Positions 5,164 through 16,769 of a stretch of DNA of 64,000 nucleotides are shown here, piece after piece. The notes beneath the pieces are model-generated. The model did not search any database. It saw only the letters and a program-made list of their open reading frames with translations, and was not told the origin of the DNA. The stretch's first letter is position 1. Each line of letters begins with the position of its first letter. The position numbers and the translations under genes were made by a program. The DNA comes from Gammaproteobacteria bacterium. Its GTDB lineage: Bacteria > Pseudomonadota > Gammaproteobacteria > Acidiferrobacterales > Sulfurifustaceae. Location: contig JACQFZ010000022.1 of assembly GCA_016199745.1 (NCBI GenBank), positions 62,001 through 126,000 on the forward strand, read 5' to 3'.

Positions 5164-8100
5164 ATGACCTCGGGTGATCACAAAGTCGCAAAGACCGCTT
5201 CGATCGACCAGCCACCGTTGTTGTGTCTACCCGCTAGCCGCGCGCTATCGGCGTTTCGGCGCGAACGGTTGCTCGCTGAATTGCAAAAACGGGTACCGGC
5301 GCTAACCGGCGTCGAAGCGCGTTACTGGCATTTCGTCTTGCTGCGCGAGACCTTGGATACGGCCGAGAATGCCGTGCTCAATCGCTTGCTGCGTTATGGC
5401 CCGCAGTCGCAAGCGGTCGAGTTCGCTGCTACCGGCGAATTGTTGTTGGTAGTGCCGCGGGTCGGCACGATCTCGCCGTGGTCGAGCAAAGCGACTGATA
5501 TTGCCCGACGCTGCGGCCTTACCAAGATCGATCGTCTCGAGCGCGGCATCGCTTGGCATGTTACCCACGAGCAGGGCGTGGCGCTGAGTAGCGACGAGCG
5601 CGAGCGCATCGCCGCGTTGTTGCACGACCGCATGACCGAGACAGTGTTCGTCGAAGTCGACCAGGTGGCGGCGCTGTTCGAGCGATCGGCGCCGACACCG
5701 TTGGCATTGGTCGATTTGCTCGGTAACGGCCGCACGGCGTTGGAAGCCGCCGACCAGCAACTCGGCTTGGCCTTAGCGCCGGACGAAATCGATTATCTGC
5801 TCGATTACTACGCGCGCCTCAAACGCAATCCGACCGACGTCGAGCTCATGATGTTCGCGCAGGCGAACTCGGAGCATTGCCGACACAAGATTTTCAATGC
5901 CGACTGGGTGATCGACGGCAAGCGCCAGACGCATTCGCTGTTCGGCATGATTCGCGAGACCCATGCGCAAAATCCGAAAGGCACGTTGTCGGCGTACAAG
6001 GACAACGCCGCCGTTATCGAAGGCGGGCGCATCGGCCGTTTCTTCGCCGATCCGTCGACCGGCGAGTACGGCTATCACGAGGATGACACGCACATCCTGC
6101 TGAAGGTCGAGACGCATAATCACCCGACGGCGATTTCGCCGTTCCCGGGTGCCGCTACCGGTTCCGGCGGCGAGATCCGCGACGAAGGTGCGACCGGCCG
6201 CGGCGCCAAGCCGAAGGCGGGGCTCGCCGGGTTCTCGGTGTCCAATTTGCGTCTGCCCGGTGCCGTGCGGCCGTGGGAGGGTGACAACGGCAAGCCGGAA
6301 CGTATCGCCTCGGCGCTATCGATCATGCTCGAAGGCCCGATCGGTGGAGCGTCGTTCAACAACGAATTCGGCCGACCGAACCTAGCGGGTTACTTCCGTA
6401 CGTTCGAAGAAACCGTCGCCGGCGAAGTGCGTGGTTACCACAAGCCGATCATGATCGCCGGCGGTCTCGGCAACATCCGCGGTGACCACGTCGAGAAATT
6501 ATCGATCCCAGCGGGTGCCAAGATCGTCGTGCTGGGCGGTCCGTCGATGTTGATCGGTCTCGGCGGCGGTGCCGCGTCGAGTGTCGCCACCGGCACGAGC
6601 GCCGCCGATCTCGATTTTGCCTCGGTGCAGCGCTCGAACGCGGAAATGCAACGACGTTGCCAGGAAGTCATCGACCAGTGCTGGGCGCTCGGCGACGAAA
6701 ATCCGATTCTGTCGATCCACGACGTCGGCGCCGGCGGTTTGTCGAACGCCGTACCGGAGATCGTGCACGGCAGCGACCGCGGCGGTCGCTTCGAGCTACG
6801 CGCAATCCCGAACGATCAGCCGGGTATGTCGCCGATGCAAGTCTGGTGCAACGAATCGCAGGAGCGCTACGTGCTCGCGATCGTTGCCGATCAGATCGAG
6901 GCGTTCGTGCGTTTGTGCGAGCGCGAGCGTTGCCCGTACGCCGTTATCGGCGAGGCCACTGCCGAGACGCATCTGCTGGTGCATGACAGTTATTTCGACA
7001 ACGACATGGACGCGTCGCCCGAGTCGGAACGGCGCGCGCGGCCGATCGACGTCGACCTCGGCGTTATTCTCGGCAAGCCGCCGCGCATGAAGCGCGAGGT
7101 GAAGCGTACTAAGCGTAAGCTCGTCGGATTCAACACCAAAGAGATCGACGTCAAAGATGCGGTCTATCGCCTGTTGCGTCTACCGACCGTGGCCGACAAG
7201 ACCTTTCTCATTAGCATCGGCGATCGCAGCGTCGGCGGTCTTACCGCGCGCGATCAGATGGTCGGTCCGTGGCAGGTGCCGGTCGCCGATGTCGCGGTGA
7301 CGGCGAGCGGTTATCAAAGTTACAGCGGCGAAGCCATGGCTATGGGCGAGCGCACACCGATCGCGTTGATCGATGCGGCCGCTAGCGGCCGCATGGCGAT
7401 CGGCGAAGCGTTAACGAACATCGCCGCCGCCCGTATCCGGGCGTTGCCCGAGGTGAAGCTATCGGCCAATTGGATGGCGGCCGCCGGCCACCCGGGCGAA
7501 GATGCGGCGCTATACGACACCGTGCGCGCAGTAGCACTTGAGCTGTGTCCGGCGCTCGGCATTGCGATTCCGGTCGGCAAAGATTCGATGTCGATGAAGA
7601 CGGTGTGGCAAGAAGGCGCGGAGCAACGCGCCGTCACCGCGCCGCTGTCGCTCATTATCTCGGCGTTCGCGCCGGTGACGGATGTACGCAAGACGCTGAC
7701 GCCGCAACTACGGACCGATAAGGGTGCGACCGATTTGATTCTGGTCGATCTCGGCAAAGGCCAGAATCGCCTCGGTGGCTCGGCGCTGGCGCAGGTTTAT
7801 CGCCAAATCGGCGATGAAGCGCCGGATGTCGACGATCCGCGCACGCTGCGCTTGTTCTTCCATGTGATCCAGGCATTGAACGAGCTCGGCTTCGCGTTGG
7901 CGTACCACGATCGCTCCGACGGCGGCTTGTTCACGACGATTTGCGAAATGGCATTCGCCGGCCACACCGGTGTCAGCATCGATCTCACGGCGCTCGGGCG
8001 CGATCCGGTGGCGGCGCTGTTCAGCGAAGAATTGGGTGCAGTGTTGCAAGTGCCGCGCGCGCGTCGCGACGGTATTCTCGGCGCCTTGAAGAAGGCCGGA

Positions 8101-13839: not shown

Positions 13840-14535
13840 ATGCAACAAATCCGTCGCTGGCATATTTATCCCAATATCGAAGATCTTGAGCTGCACGCGG
13901 TCCGCGCCATTCTGCGGGCGGCGGCGCAAGCGATCGAGCTACGCGGCCATTTTTCCATCGTTCTCGCCGGCGGCGACACGCCACAGCGGCTGTACGCTCA
14001 GTTGGCAGGGGCGGTGTCCGATTGGGGTCGTTGGCATATTTATTTTGGCGACGAGCGCTGTCTGCCGGCCGGTCACACCGATCGCAACGACCAGCGCGCC
14101 CGCCAGGTATGGTTGAACCATGTAGCGATTCCCGGTGCGCAGATCCGGCCGATTTCGGCCGAATTTGGACCGGAAAAAGCGGCGACGCTGTATGCCGATC
14201 GGTTGGCGCCGGTCGAGTTATTCGATCTCGTGTTGCTCGGTCTCGGTGAGGATGGCCATACCGCGAGTTTATTCCCCGGCCTGTGGAATCCGAGCGATAC
14301 CGTTGATGTGTTGCCCGTGCGCGAGGCGCCGAAGCCGCCGTCGGAGCGGGTAACATTGAGTGCGCGCCGACTGAGCCGGGCGCAGCAGGTATTGTTTGTC
14401 GTCGCCGGCGCGCACAAGCGCGAGGCGATGGCGGCGTGGCGCCGTGGCGACGCGATTCCGGCGGCCGGAATCGTGCCAGCTTTAGGTGTTGAGATTTTGG
14501 TCGATGCGACTGCCTGGCCGGATGGGATGGCGTAG
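13840..14535 (+). CDS. pgl: 6-phosphogluconolactonase (DevB/SOL type)
   Basis: Hydrolyses 6-phosphogluconolactone to 6-phosphogluconate. The 231-residue NagB-fold protein has FSIVLAGGDTPQRLYAQLA (about 38-56), the WHIYFGDERCLPAGHTDRND motif (about 65-84) and the signature DLVLLGLGEDGHTASLFPG (about 130-148). It starts 5 bp after the zwf stop, in the same operon. Confidence 0.95.
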   Translation: MQQIRRWHIYPNIEDLELHAVRAILRAAAQAIELRGHFSIVLAGGDTPQRLYAQLAGAVSDWGRWHIYFGDERCLPAGHTDRNDQRARQVWLNHVAIPGAQIRPISAEFGPEKAATLYADRLAPVELFDLVLLGLGEDGHTASLFPGLWNPSDTVDVLPVREAPKPPSERVTLSARRLSRAQQVLFVVAGAHKREAMAAWRRGDAIPAAGIVPALGVEILVDATAWPDGMA

Positions 14536-14560
14536 GTACAAACGACCAGTAGGTTAAGTC

Positions 14561-14785
14561 ATGGCAAAAAAGAAAGACGACCTCATTACGCTATCGCAGG
14601 CGGCCGAGACCTACGGCTATTCGGGCGACTATCTGCGCCGGCTAGCGGAGAACGGTCGGCTGCGCGCGCGCAAGTTTGGCCGCAATTGGCTGACCACGTC
14701 CGACGACGTTGAAACGTTTATCGAGAGTCGCGAGCAGCGCGGCGTTTATAAAAAAAATCCGCGTACGCCGCGCAAAAAAAAATAG
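14561..14785 (+). CDS. Small excisionase-like/MerR-type helix-turn-helix protein
   Basis: A basic 74-residue protein with one winged HTH of the HTH_17/excisionase type: LITLSQAAETYGYSGDYLRR, LAENGRLRARKFGRNWLT and DDVETFIESR. The tail is very Lys/Arg-rich and encoded by A-runs. Such proteins are phage/ICE recombination directionality factors or small regulators. It sits between the pgl operon (26 bp upstream) and an AT-rich patch with an XRE-CsrA pair, so it could belong to a small acquired island. No integrase is nearby. Confidence 0.8.
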   Translation: MAKKKDDLITLSQAAETYGYSGDYLRRLAENGRLRARKFGRNWLTTSDDVETFIESREQRGVYKKNPRTPRKKK

Positions 14786-15039
14786 GAGTTTAAGTCAGCA
14801 TTGTCTTTCCGGCAAACGCCCAAATTAAATTTTACTCTGCCAAAAATAGTTTCCGTCTTCGGAAGCGACAGCGAGACCAAGTTTTCTTGGTGCCATACAA
14901 AGCATCGACCTGCGGTGAAAGTTGTTAACGTCGAGCGAACGATGCATTGCATCGCCAATATTTCCCTCATGGGTTGGCCGCGCCTTATTCAGTGAATGTC
15001 CCCTGACTTACGCAAACGCACTATTTGCATTTCTTTACT
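14786..15039. other. AT-rich stretch without a convincing gene
   Basis: Clearly richer in A and T than the flanking DNA. Small ORFs here show no family motif, codon preference or good ribosome-binding site. It leads into a perfect palindrome and an XRE gene, and likely holds their promoter and the edge of an acquired segment. Confidence 0.5.
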
Positions 15040-15059
15040 ATAGCACGATATCGTGCTAT
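15040..15059. promoter_or_regulatory. Perfect 20-bp palindrome, probable operator
   Basis: ATAGCACGAT/ATCGTGCTAT is perfectly self-complementary and lies in AT-rich DNA about 155 bp upstream of the XRE start. Length and symmetry fit a dimeric repressor site, and autoregulation by the XRE protein is the simplest reading. No binding evidence exists in the sequence itself. Confidence 0.55.
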
Positions 15060-15214
15060 TTGTTGCACGTAGTTCAGTGGGAGAGTTTATGGGTGTGGGG
15101 TTGCGCCAATGCATAAAGGGCGACGCGGATTGGAAATTATCTTCTGCGAATCGATACATAAACACGTCACAGCGAGAATCAACCGCTGTAGACGGCGACA
15201 TAAGCAACAACATA

Positions 15215-15505
15215 ATGAACGCCATGGGAAAGAGGGCAAGGGCTCTGCTCGCGCAGAATTTACGGATCTTACGGTTGATGCGTGGCTGGTCACAGGAACA
15301 GCTTGGCACGGCAAGCGGATTGCATCGGACATACATCAGTCTTGTCGAGCGGTCGGCTTGTAACATCAGCTTGGATAACTTGGAAAAACTCGCGGATGCT
15401 TTTGGGTTGGGATTGCATCAACTGCTGGCGATGCCCGACGCGGCAACGTTCGGTGAGGAGCTGCTCAGCGCATTGCGATCAAGCGATAAACGGAAGGAGC
15501 GTTGA
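15215..15505 (+). CDS. XRE-family transcriptional regulator
   Basis: About 96 residues from the ATG at 15215 (an alternative ATG lies at 15224). A Cro/CI-type HTH_3 is clear: NLRILRLMRGWSQEQLGTAS, GLHRTYISLVERSACNISLD, then NLEKLADAFGLGLHQLL. The reading frame stays open further upstream but that part has no homology. It precedes a CsrA-like gene by 2 bp. XRE-CsrA-paralogue pairs are known from integrative conjugative elements of Legionella and relatives, where they control element maintenance. Function here is inferred from that. Confidence 0.85.
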   Translation: MNAMGKRARALLAQNLRILRLMRGWSQEQLGTASGLHRTYISLVERSACNISLDNLEKLADAFGLGLHQLLAMPDAATFGEELLSALRSSDKRKER

Positions 15506-15507
15506 CG

Positions 15508-15720
15508 ATGTTAATTGTGAGTCGCAAGGTTAAGCAGAGTTTGTGCATCGCGCTCGATCCTACGATCGATCCAAAAACGCCAATCGGCGAGATCTTCGCG
15601 CGCGGGCCGATTCGTGTGGTGGTGGCGTGTATCGAAGATACCTACGTTCGTCTGGGTATCAGCGCCCATCCTGGGTTGGCTATTCTGCGCGAAGAGTTGC
15701 ACGTGTTCCCGGAAATATAA
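15508..15720 (+). CDS. Divergent CsrA-family RNA-binding protein (CsrT-like paralogue)
   Basis: A 70-residue protein with the CsrA frame: MLIVSRKVKQSLCI at the N-terminus (Leu2 and Arg6 kept) and VRLGISAHPGLAILREEL later, keeping the key Arg of the VHREE motif. About 17 extra residues (PTIDPKTPIGEIFARG region) are inserted between strands 1 and 2, and the C-terminal helix is short. A GGAAGGAG Shine-Dalgarno sits 8 bp before the ATG, inside the end of the XRE gene. Canonical CsrA binds GGA motifs in mRNA leaders; this looks like a specialised paralogue, not the housekeeping copy. Confidence 0.8.
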   Translation: MLIVSRKVKQSLCIALDPTIDPKTPIGEIFARGPIRVVVACIEDTYVRLGISAHPGLAILREELHVFPEI

Positions 15721-15900
15721 AACGCAGGCGCGGGATGAACGGTACCGTGCCGTTTGTCCCGCAGGTCTGATCATTCAATGGTGGCTCGTCCGATTGTCGG
15801 CCCAACAAAAACCGATACTTAGGCGAAAAACCTCTAATTTCTGCTTATTTGGCACAGCCTGTGCTTTGTGTCAGGGAAAGCGAATGCGAGGTTTACCGCT

Positions 15901-16518
15901 ATGTCGATCAGTCAACGGTTGGGATGGGCGATCATCATGGGCTATCTGGTGGCGACACCGGTAGCGCAAGCGGGGATTTACGTTTACGAGCTGCCGGACG
16001 GGTCGCGCGTGGTGACCGATCATGCCATGGCTAATCCGCTGTATAAGTTGGTTCGCAGCGGCGACGTCGCGAAGGGCATGGGTCAATTGGTGGCGCATCA
16101 GAACCCGCAGTTCTTCCGCGCTGACCCATCGGCGTACGATCGCATGATTCATCGGCTAGCATCGGAAAACAAGGTGGACTTTGCCTTGGTAAAAGCGGTG
16201 ATGCATGTCGAATCGGCGTTCAATCCGTATGCCCGCTCGAATAAAGGCGCACTCGGTTTGATGCAGCTGTTACCGCAAACCGCACAGCGCTACGGCATCA
16301 ACGACATCTACGACCCGATGCAGAACATCGCCGCCGGTGTTAAACATTTGCGCTATCTGCTGGGTATGTTTAACAACAAGCACAAGCTCGCGCTCGCCGC
16401 TTACAACGCCGGTGAGCAAGCCGTGATTCGCCATCGCGGCGTGCCGCCGTATCCGGAGACACAGGAATACGTGCGCAAAGTCATGCACTATCAGAAGCAG
16501 TACAGCCGGTCTTCCTAA
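15901..16518 (+). CDS. Secreted lytic transglycosylase (SLT domain)
   Basis: A periplasmic peptidoglycan-cleaving enzyme of 205 residues. I chose the ATG at 15901, preceded by GCGAGG, because it opens with a signal peptide ending APVAQA-like (VATPVAQA). A DUF4124-like strand segment follows (IYVYELPDGSRVVTDH). The SLT domain runs from about 85: FALVKAVMHVESAFNPYARS with catalytic Glu, KGALGLMQLLPQTAQRYG, IAAGVKHLRYLL and LALAAYNAGEQAV. The domain order and size match the small MltE/Slt-like proteins that often carry an N-terminal DUF4124. It is monocistronic. Confidence 0.92.
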   Translation: MSISQRLGWAIIMGYLVATPVAQAGIYVYELPDGSRVVTDHAMANPLYKLVRSGDVAKGMGQLVAHQNPQFFRADPSAYDRMIHRLASENKVDFALVKAVMHVESAFNPYARSNKGALGLMQLLPQTAQRYGINDIYDPMQNIAAGVKHLRYLLGMFNNKHKLALAAYNAGEQAVIRHRGVPPYPETQEYVRKVMHYQKQYSRSS

Positions 16519-16656
16519 AGCGCTCTGGTATTCCGCGAAGTTTCGCCAGTCAGCTTGTTATTCACCCGACGTAATCCTGAGCTGTATTTTCTAGGTGATG
16601 TCATCGATCAAACCGATGCGAAGCATTTGTTCCGTGGCGCCGGAAAGTTTCTTCTA

Positions 16657-16752
16657 AGAGACGGTAACAAAATGAAATAGCTTTAACGTAGCCGTCCCCT
16701 CCCCCTCAGGGGAGGGAGTTAACGTGCCAACGTTCATTTTGTTACCGTCTCT
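16657..16752. repeat. Composite inverted-repeat element with a central REP-like hairpin
   Basis: Perfect 20-bp terminal arms, AGAGACGGTAACAAAATGAA at 16657-16676 and its complement at 16733-16752, enclose a CCCCTCCC/GGGGAGGG hairpin (16696-16716). The 96-bp unit lies between convergent genes. It may be a small non-autonomous palindromic element, and it could fold into a long cruciform or end transcripts from both sides. Confidence 0.75.
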
Positions 16753-16769
16753 AATCAGAAATCGCTCGA

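Follow-up and report, generated by a model that had tools for sequence, protein, structure and literature searches.

The closest described counterparts of the small CsrA-like protein considered here are RsmN and RsmF of Pseudomonas aeruginosa, whose structures are available as PDB entries 4KJI, 4KRW and 4K59. In RsmN a helix of 16 residues is inserted between strands 2 and 3, and the protein is further marked by Arg62, by the pairing of Arg8 with Glu64, by a Gly-Ile motif and by a C-terminus that is short (PMC3791407, Morris et al. 2013). RsmN fails to complement for glycogen (PMC3791407). The RsmN/RsmF type is further characterised by a requirement for Arg62 in RNA binding and by a non-swapped dimer that binds ANGGA RNA. 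In PMC3791407 and PMC7366521 CsrA proteins of this rearranged type are described from Pseudomonas only. A second point of comparison is the lvrRABC / CsrT group of Legionella, which accompanies type IV secretion genes within integrative and conjugative elements (ICEs) and in which LvrR possesses SOS-repressor-like domains (PMC3864950, PMC7366521).

The locus described here lies in a stretch of 64,000 nucleotides (the window) from a gammaproteobacterium of the family Sulfurifustaceae, and its features are collected in the table. It is a real, conserved chromosomal regulatory cassette that is composed of known parts in a new arrangement. Several elements of the original prediction were confirmed, namely an AT-rich island (GC 0.516 against 0.590 across the window, the 0.3rd percentile among 1160-bp windows), an excisionase-like helix-turn-helix (HTH) gene, a perfect 20-bp palindrome with zero mismatches, and an XRE gene that overlaps the ribosome-binding site of csrA. 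The low GC is mostly due to a 438-bp intergenic stretch with a GC of 0.463, and the csrA start codon is found 2 nt past the XRE stop codon (15503-15505).

Table. Features of the cassette, with positions counted from the first letter of the window.
Feature	Position	Strand	Basis or remark
Xis-like / MerR-fold HTH protein, 74 aa	14561..14785	+	Begins 26 nt downstream of the pgl stop; matches Pfam HTH_17 as well as NCBIfam TIGR01764 'excise'
Promoter-like site P1, TTTACT - 17 nt - TATTTG, palindrome fills the spacer	15034..15062	+	Layout common to 10 xis-bearing loci
Palindrome ATAGCACGATATCGTGCTAT, putative operator within the spacer of P1	15040..15059	.	Conserved TAGCACG-N4-CGTGCTA
Promoter-like site P2, TAGACG - 16 nt - CATAAT	15189..15216	+	Sigma-70-like match; block conserved 5' of XRE elsewhere
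XRE (HTH_3) regulator, 93 aa	15224..15505	+	Pfam HTH_3; start (ATG) set by conservation
csrA Shine-Dalgarno sequence AAGGAG, within the XRE reading frame	15494..15499	+	Direct reading of the sequence
RsmN-type CsrA of 70 aa with a helix inserted between strands 2 and 3	15508..15720	+	Pfam CsrA; PDB profile; AlphaFold2

The CsrA protein of the window scores 35.9 bits against the Pfam CsrA family (cut-off 27) but falls far under the cut-off of the NCBIfam csrA equivalog (29.8 vs 73 bits). In a single-sequence search of the PDB the top matches were P. aeruginosa RsmF (E 0.0024) and RsmN (E 0.003), and a profile built from 20 relatives matched RsmF and RsmN over the full length (E 2.6e-12 and 3.2e-12), ahead of canonical CsrA, for which the best alignment was confined to the second half. 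With 13 relatives aligned, AlphaFold2 predicts for the monomer the order b1-b2-helix-b3-b4-b5 (pLDDT 90.8), in which the helix (residues 25-29) sits between strands at residues 11-16 and 35-38. RsmN and RsmF were also the only convincing matches with Foldseek and VIA (probability 0.89-0.93; Z 4.6-4.7, with the next row at 2.5), and the Foldseek E-values are weak (0.24), as is expected for a protein of 70 residues. The original prediction had correctly noticed a 17-residue insertion, although the model places it between strands 2 and 3 and not between strands 1 and 2. It had treated the insertion as the oddity of a divergent protein, a view that gives way to the known RsmN/RsmF rearrangement on the strength of the PDB matches and the predicted fold.

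The likeness extends to individual residues. The RNA-binding arginines are kept, as had been proposed, with R6 and R61 invariant and E63 nearly invariant among the 20 relatives, and R61, R6 and E63 are the equivalents of Arg62, Arg8 and Glu64 of RsmN in so far as the residues are present. The C-terminus is shorter than in RsmA, reaching only 9 residues past R61, and it has no C-terminal helix beyond a predicted helical turn of 3 residues. The inserted segment, of 16-17 residues in the two proteins, is followed by Gly33-Pro34-Ile35 in the window CsrA, where a proline splits the Gly-Ile pair of RsmN, and the protein has K9 in place of G9 and D44 in place of a glycine, in turns where glycines are otherwise conserved. 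Since the RsmN hallmarks are present, save for the split Gly-Ile, the protein is, on its sequence and modelled fold, RsmN-type by features; it is about 30% identical to RsmN/RsmF and is not claimed as an RsmN orthologue. Proteins of the same type were found in 34 of 96 relatives, and in contrast to RsmN/RsmF some relatives have several copies per genome, up to eight in one case (G020). A scan of genome contigs used a narrower alignment and may miss distant members. The genome of the window itself contains 16 CsrA-domain matches. Two copies elsewhere have other surroundings: one in G004 (L047, C1, around 2672931) lies beside dndC/dndD-like genes, judged by eye, and an RsmN-like gene on an IMG/VR contig (L061:7998-8255) has a Gly-Ile motif after the helix and no XRE gene upstream.

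A further difference from RsmN/RsmF is that csrA here follows XRE as the second gene in an operon that has an Xis-like regulator upstream. The XRE protein matches Pfam HTH_3 (E 6.8e-12), and at 14 distinct loci from three families (f1, f2 and f6) an XRE gene lies on the same strand, 3-18 nt upstream of an RsmN-type csrA; the RsmN-type copies tested from f4 have no XRE upstream, although in G040 and G044 an XRE match adjoins the weak CsrA match. The distances among the XRE proteins correlate with those among their CsrA partners (r 0.82; 0 of 5000 permutations), a relationship that partly reflects species history. Values of dN/dS range from 0.06 to 0.36 and are near 0.1 for both XRE and CsrA in close pairs. 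The close spacing of the two genes, and a weak resemblance of the XRE protein to HipB-type antitoxins (34 bits vs a cut-off of 71.65), would fit a toxin-antitoxin-like pair with XRE as the antitoxin and CsrA as its partner, but the second gene is clearly CsrA/RsmN with its RNA-binding residues kept and nothing toxin-like is present, making this reading very improbable. Target genes shared beside the XRE-CsrA pairs were also considered and rejected, as the neighbours differ among non-syntenic copies. The genome of the window has further XRE genes that share about 60% identity with that of the cassette (L057:12218-12961 on contig C55 and L059:10272-11149 on C69; also on C67), which lie upstream of tandem fused double CsrA genes encoding 113-133 residues. 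The first repeat of these fusions seems to be without strand 5, and a canonical csrA is found nearby.

In phage lambda, the HTH_3 repressor cI is made from a leaderless mRNA that originates at PRM. The XRE gene of the cassette, also encoding an HTH_3 regulator, appears from its sequence context to be expressed in a similar manner, although the cassette is not a phage and the partner of its XRE protein is an RNA-binding protein. P2 is the sole sigma-70-like match in 14400-16000 and is, taken alone, not above chance (shuffles give 1.2), but a P2-like block, accompanied by no clear Shine-Dalgarno sequence, is found 5' of XRE in f1, f2 and f6 loci. Because P2 ends 7 nt before the XRE ATG, we infer that the XRE mRNA is leaderless, with the transcript starting on the XRE start codon.

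Promoters activated by MerR have a spacer of 19-20 bp between the -35 and -10 elements, and a palindromic operator fills this spacer. The cassette shows a comparable arrangement, in that the Xis-like protein belongs to the winged-HTH superfamily and the palindrome fills the spacer of P1, but the spacer is 17 bp and the Xis-like protein lacks an effector domain. The palindrome occurs within 3 mismatches in no shuffle of the window and is unique in its own genome at 0 mismatches, and a copy of TAGCACG-N4-CGTGCTA at 0 mismatches is found exactly once per genome in six genomes, each time at the cassette locus; the G010 locus has a degenerate copy. Palindromes of this TAGCACG type begin directly after a -35-like hexamer and end in a -10-like hexamer, leaving a spacer of 17 nt. 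The operator lies within a P1-like spacer at 10 of 11 xis-bearing loci, with a mean of 8.0 of 12 consensus matches at these 10, where randomly chosen places within those loci give 2.8 (sd 0.47), the hexamers having been aligned only after the palindrome had been seen. The eleventh locus (L103, in G020), whose xis homologue is 42% identical, has no clear palindrome. A role for the palindrome as a transcription terminator was rejected, as orthologues have no T run behind it and the terminator scan did not pick it up, and so was a small RNA between P1 and XRE, where length and sequence vary strongly among orthologues. The window contains a second perfect 20-bp palindrome at 7374-7393, TGCGGCCGCTAGCGGCCGCA.

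The protein that binds the palindrome may be approached through the loci that have changed it. At L043, L102 and L100, whose Xis-like proteins have diverged, the half-site is AATATCC in place of TAGCACG, at the same place and preceded by TTGACA or TTGATA, so that the change of half-site goes with the type of Xis-like protein. An alternative, in the manner of cI/C-protein circuits, is that the palindrome is the binding site of XRE, which would thereby repress transcription of its own operon from P1, the Xis-like gene being an unrelated upstream gene. The length of the palindrome (20 bp), with about 11 bp from one half-site to the other, would suit an XRE dimer, and at L043 and L102 the XRE recognition helix is also changed (LDRSYVSS), but L100 combines the second half-site type with an XRE helix of the first type (LHRTYIS). 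Furthermore, L057-L059, with an identical XRE helix (LHRTYISLVER) and no Xis upstream, have no such palindrome, and at most loci the palindrome is close behind the xis stop whereas its distance to XRE varies. Binding by XRE is accordingly possible but rather unlikely. The Xis-like protein appears to be the likelier binder, because the palindrome sequence changes with it and not consistently with XRE, an argument that draws on only three loci of the second type, a small sample partly confounded by phylogeny.

The Xis-like protein scores above the cut-off against both HTH_17 (32.4, cut-off 27) and 'excise' (35.1, cut-off 28.8), and resembles an excisionase in these domains, but unlike an excisionase gene its gene has no linked integrase nearby. 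Within the order, homologues turned up in 10 of 57 genomes, and, with the L043 homologue as the query, none was found outside the family among 369 genomes of the class. At L102:932-1707 (G039) an Xis-like gene and an XRE gene accompany an operator of the second type, and no CsrA gene was seen after them, which shows that these regulators need not be paired with CsrA.

The occurrence together of an excisionase-like HTH, an XRE regulator and a CsrA paralogue, the lower GC of the patch and the presence of XRE-CsrA pairs at several places in the genomes of both G020 and G004 could suggest that the patch is what is left of a mobile element, such as an ICE, with a CsrT-like CsrA, as Legionella ICEs carry lvrRABC with the CsrA-like LvrC (PMC3864950). 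The cassette shares with that system a small CsrA paralogue 3' of a transcriptional regulator, but its XRE protein has no extra domain, the searches turned up neither a conjugation gene nor an integrase close by, and the arrangement of its genes is conserved by vertical descent. G001 and G004 keep gnd-zwf-pgl-xis-XRE-csrA-slt-vwa-moxR in full, G002, G009 and G011 keep the portion from xis to moxR, and G010 has the same order up to the contig edge, such that the cassette occupies the same chromosomal place across diverged genera; in G003 zwf-pgl is followed directly by slt with nothing between. In agreement with the original prediction of no integrase or conjugation gene, there is no integrase domain (PF00589) near the cassette, the closest on the contig being 265 kb away, and the TraG-D_C family, the only conjugation family searched, has no match in the genome. 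The att-like direct repeats that it had proposed to look for were not found flanking the patch, no tRNA was found in the window, and the plasmid and phage collections gave no hit. Given this synteny in most cassette-bearing relatives, and the absence of a near integrase, TraG/D, plasmid or phage match, the cassette is not taken as an ICE remnant, a reading that is mostly refuted and remains improbable; it looks, from its sequence and gene order, vertically inherited and chromosomal. Of the two possibilities that had been offered, an ICE remnant or a domesticated post-transcriptional switch, the first therefore falls and the second fits. The contrary picture, of a universal chromosomal locus of the clade with no mobile-element links, proved right as to a conserved locus without such links but not as to universality, as the cassette is missing from four genera of the family (g3, g5, g6 and g8). 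Separately, a MITE-like element is present at 16648-16761, with inverted repeat arms of 29 nt and 56 nt between them, and its arm sequence recurs at about ten more places in the genome.

The best overall explanation, which we consider reasonably probable, is that of a vertically inherited chromosomal cassette in which the Xis-like protein acts on the P1 palindrome, the XRE-csrA operon is expressed from P1 and P2, and the RsmN-type CsrA acts on mRNAs. Gene order and conservation, the type of fold, the spacing within the operon, the layout of the operator and selection were computed; that Xis and XRE bind DNA, that the promoters are active, that the transcript is leaderless and that CsrA binds RNA, as well as its targets, are inferred. 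The MerR-fold Xis-like protein would bind the palindrome between the -35 and -10 elements and control P1, with repression likelier than activation because the 17-bp spacer is already optimal. Both P1 and the leaderless P2 would transcribe the XRE-csrA operon, and XRE would most likely regulate its own operon at or near P2. Translation of csrA would begin from the ribosome-binding site inside the XRE gene and be coupled to that of XRE, and the RsmN-type CsrA would bind GGA motifs near the ribosome-binding sites of target mRNAs and so alter their translation.

More tentatively, and with somewhat less than even confidence, the Acidiferrobacterales lineage may possess a repeated type of XRE-CsrA operon, in which an RsmN-type or tandem-fused CsrA is translationally coupled to XRE as its dedicated DNA-binding repressor. 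One such operon, locked in the chromosome under a second, Xis/MerR-like regulator whose operator lies within the promoter spacer, would form a switch of three tiers that leads from DNA binding to RNA binding, with several parallel copies in each genome. In this little-studied lineage of bacteria related to sulfur oxidisers, which belongs to a gammaproteobacterial order distant from Pseudomonas, the rearranged RsmN topology occurs in numerous copies and is linked to a dedicated transcription factor. A patch of XRE, CsrA and Xis-like HTH genes is not necessarily the relic of a mobile element, and the multi-copy set offers natural material with which to probe both the role of the inserted helix and the insulation among CsrA paralogues in one cell.
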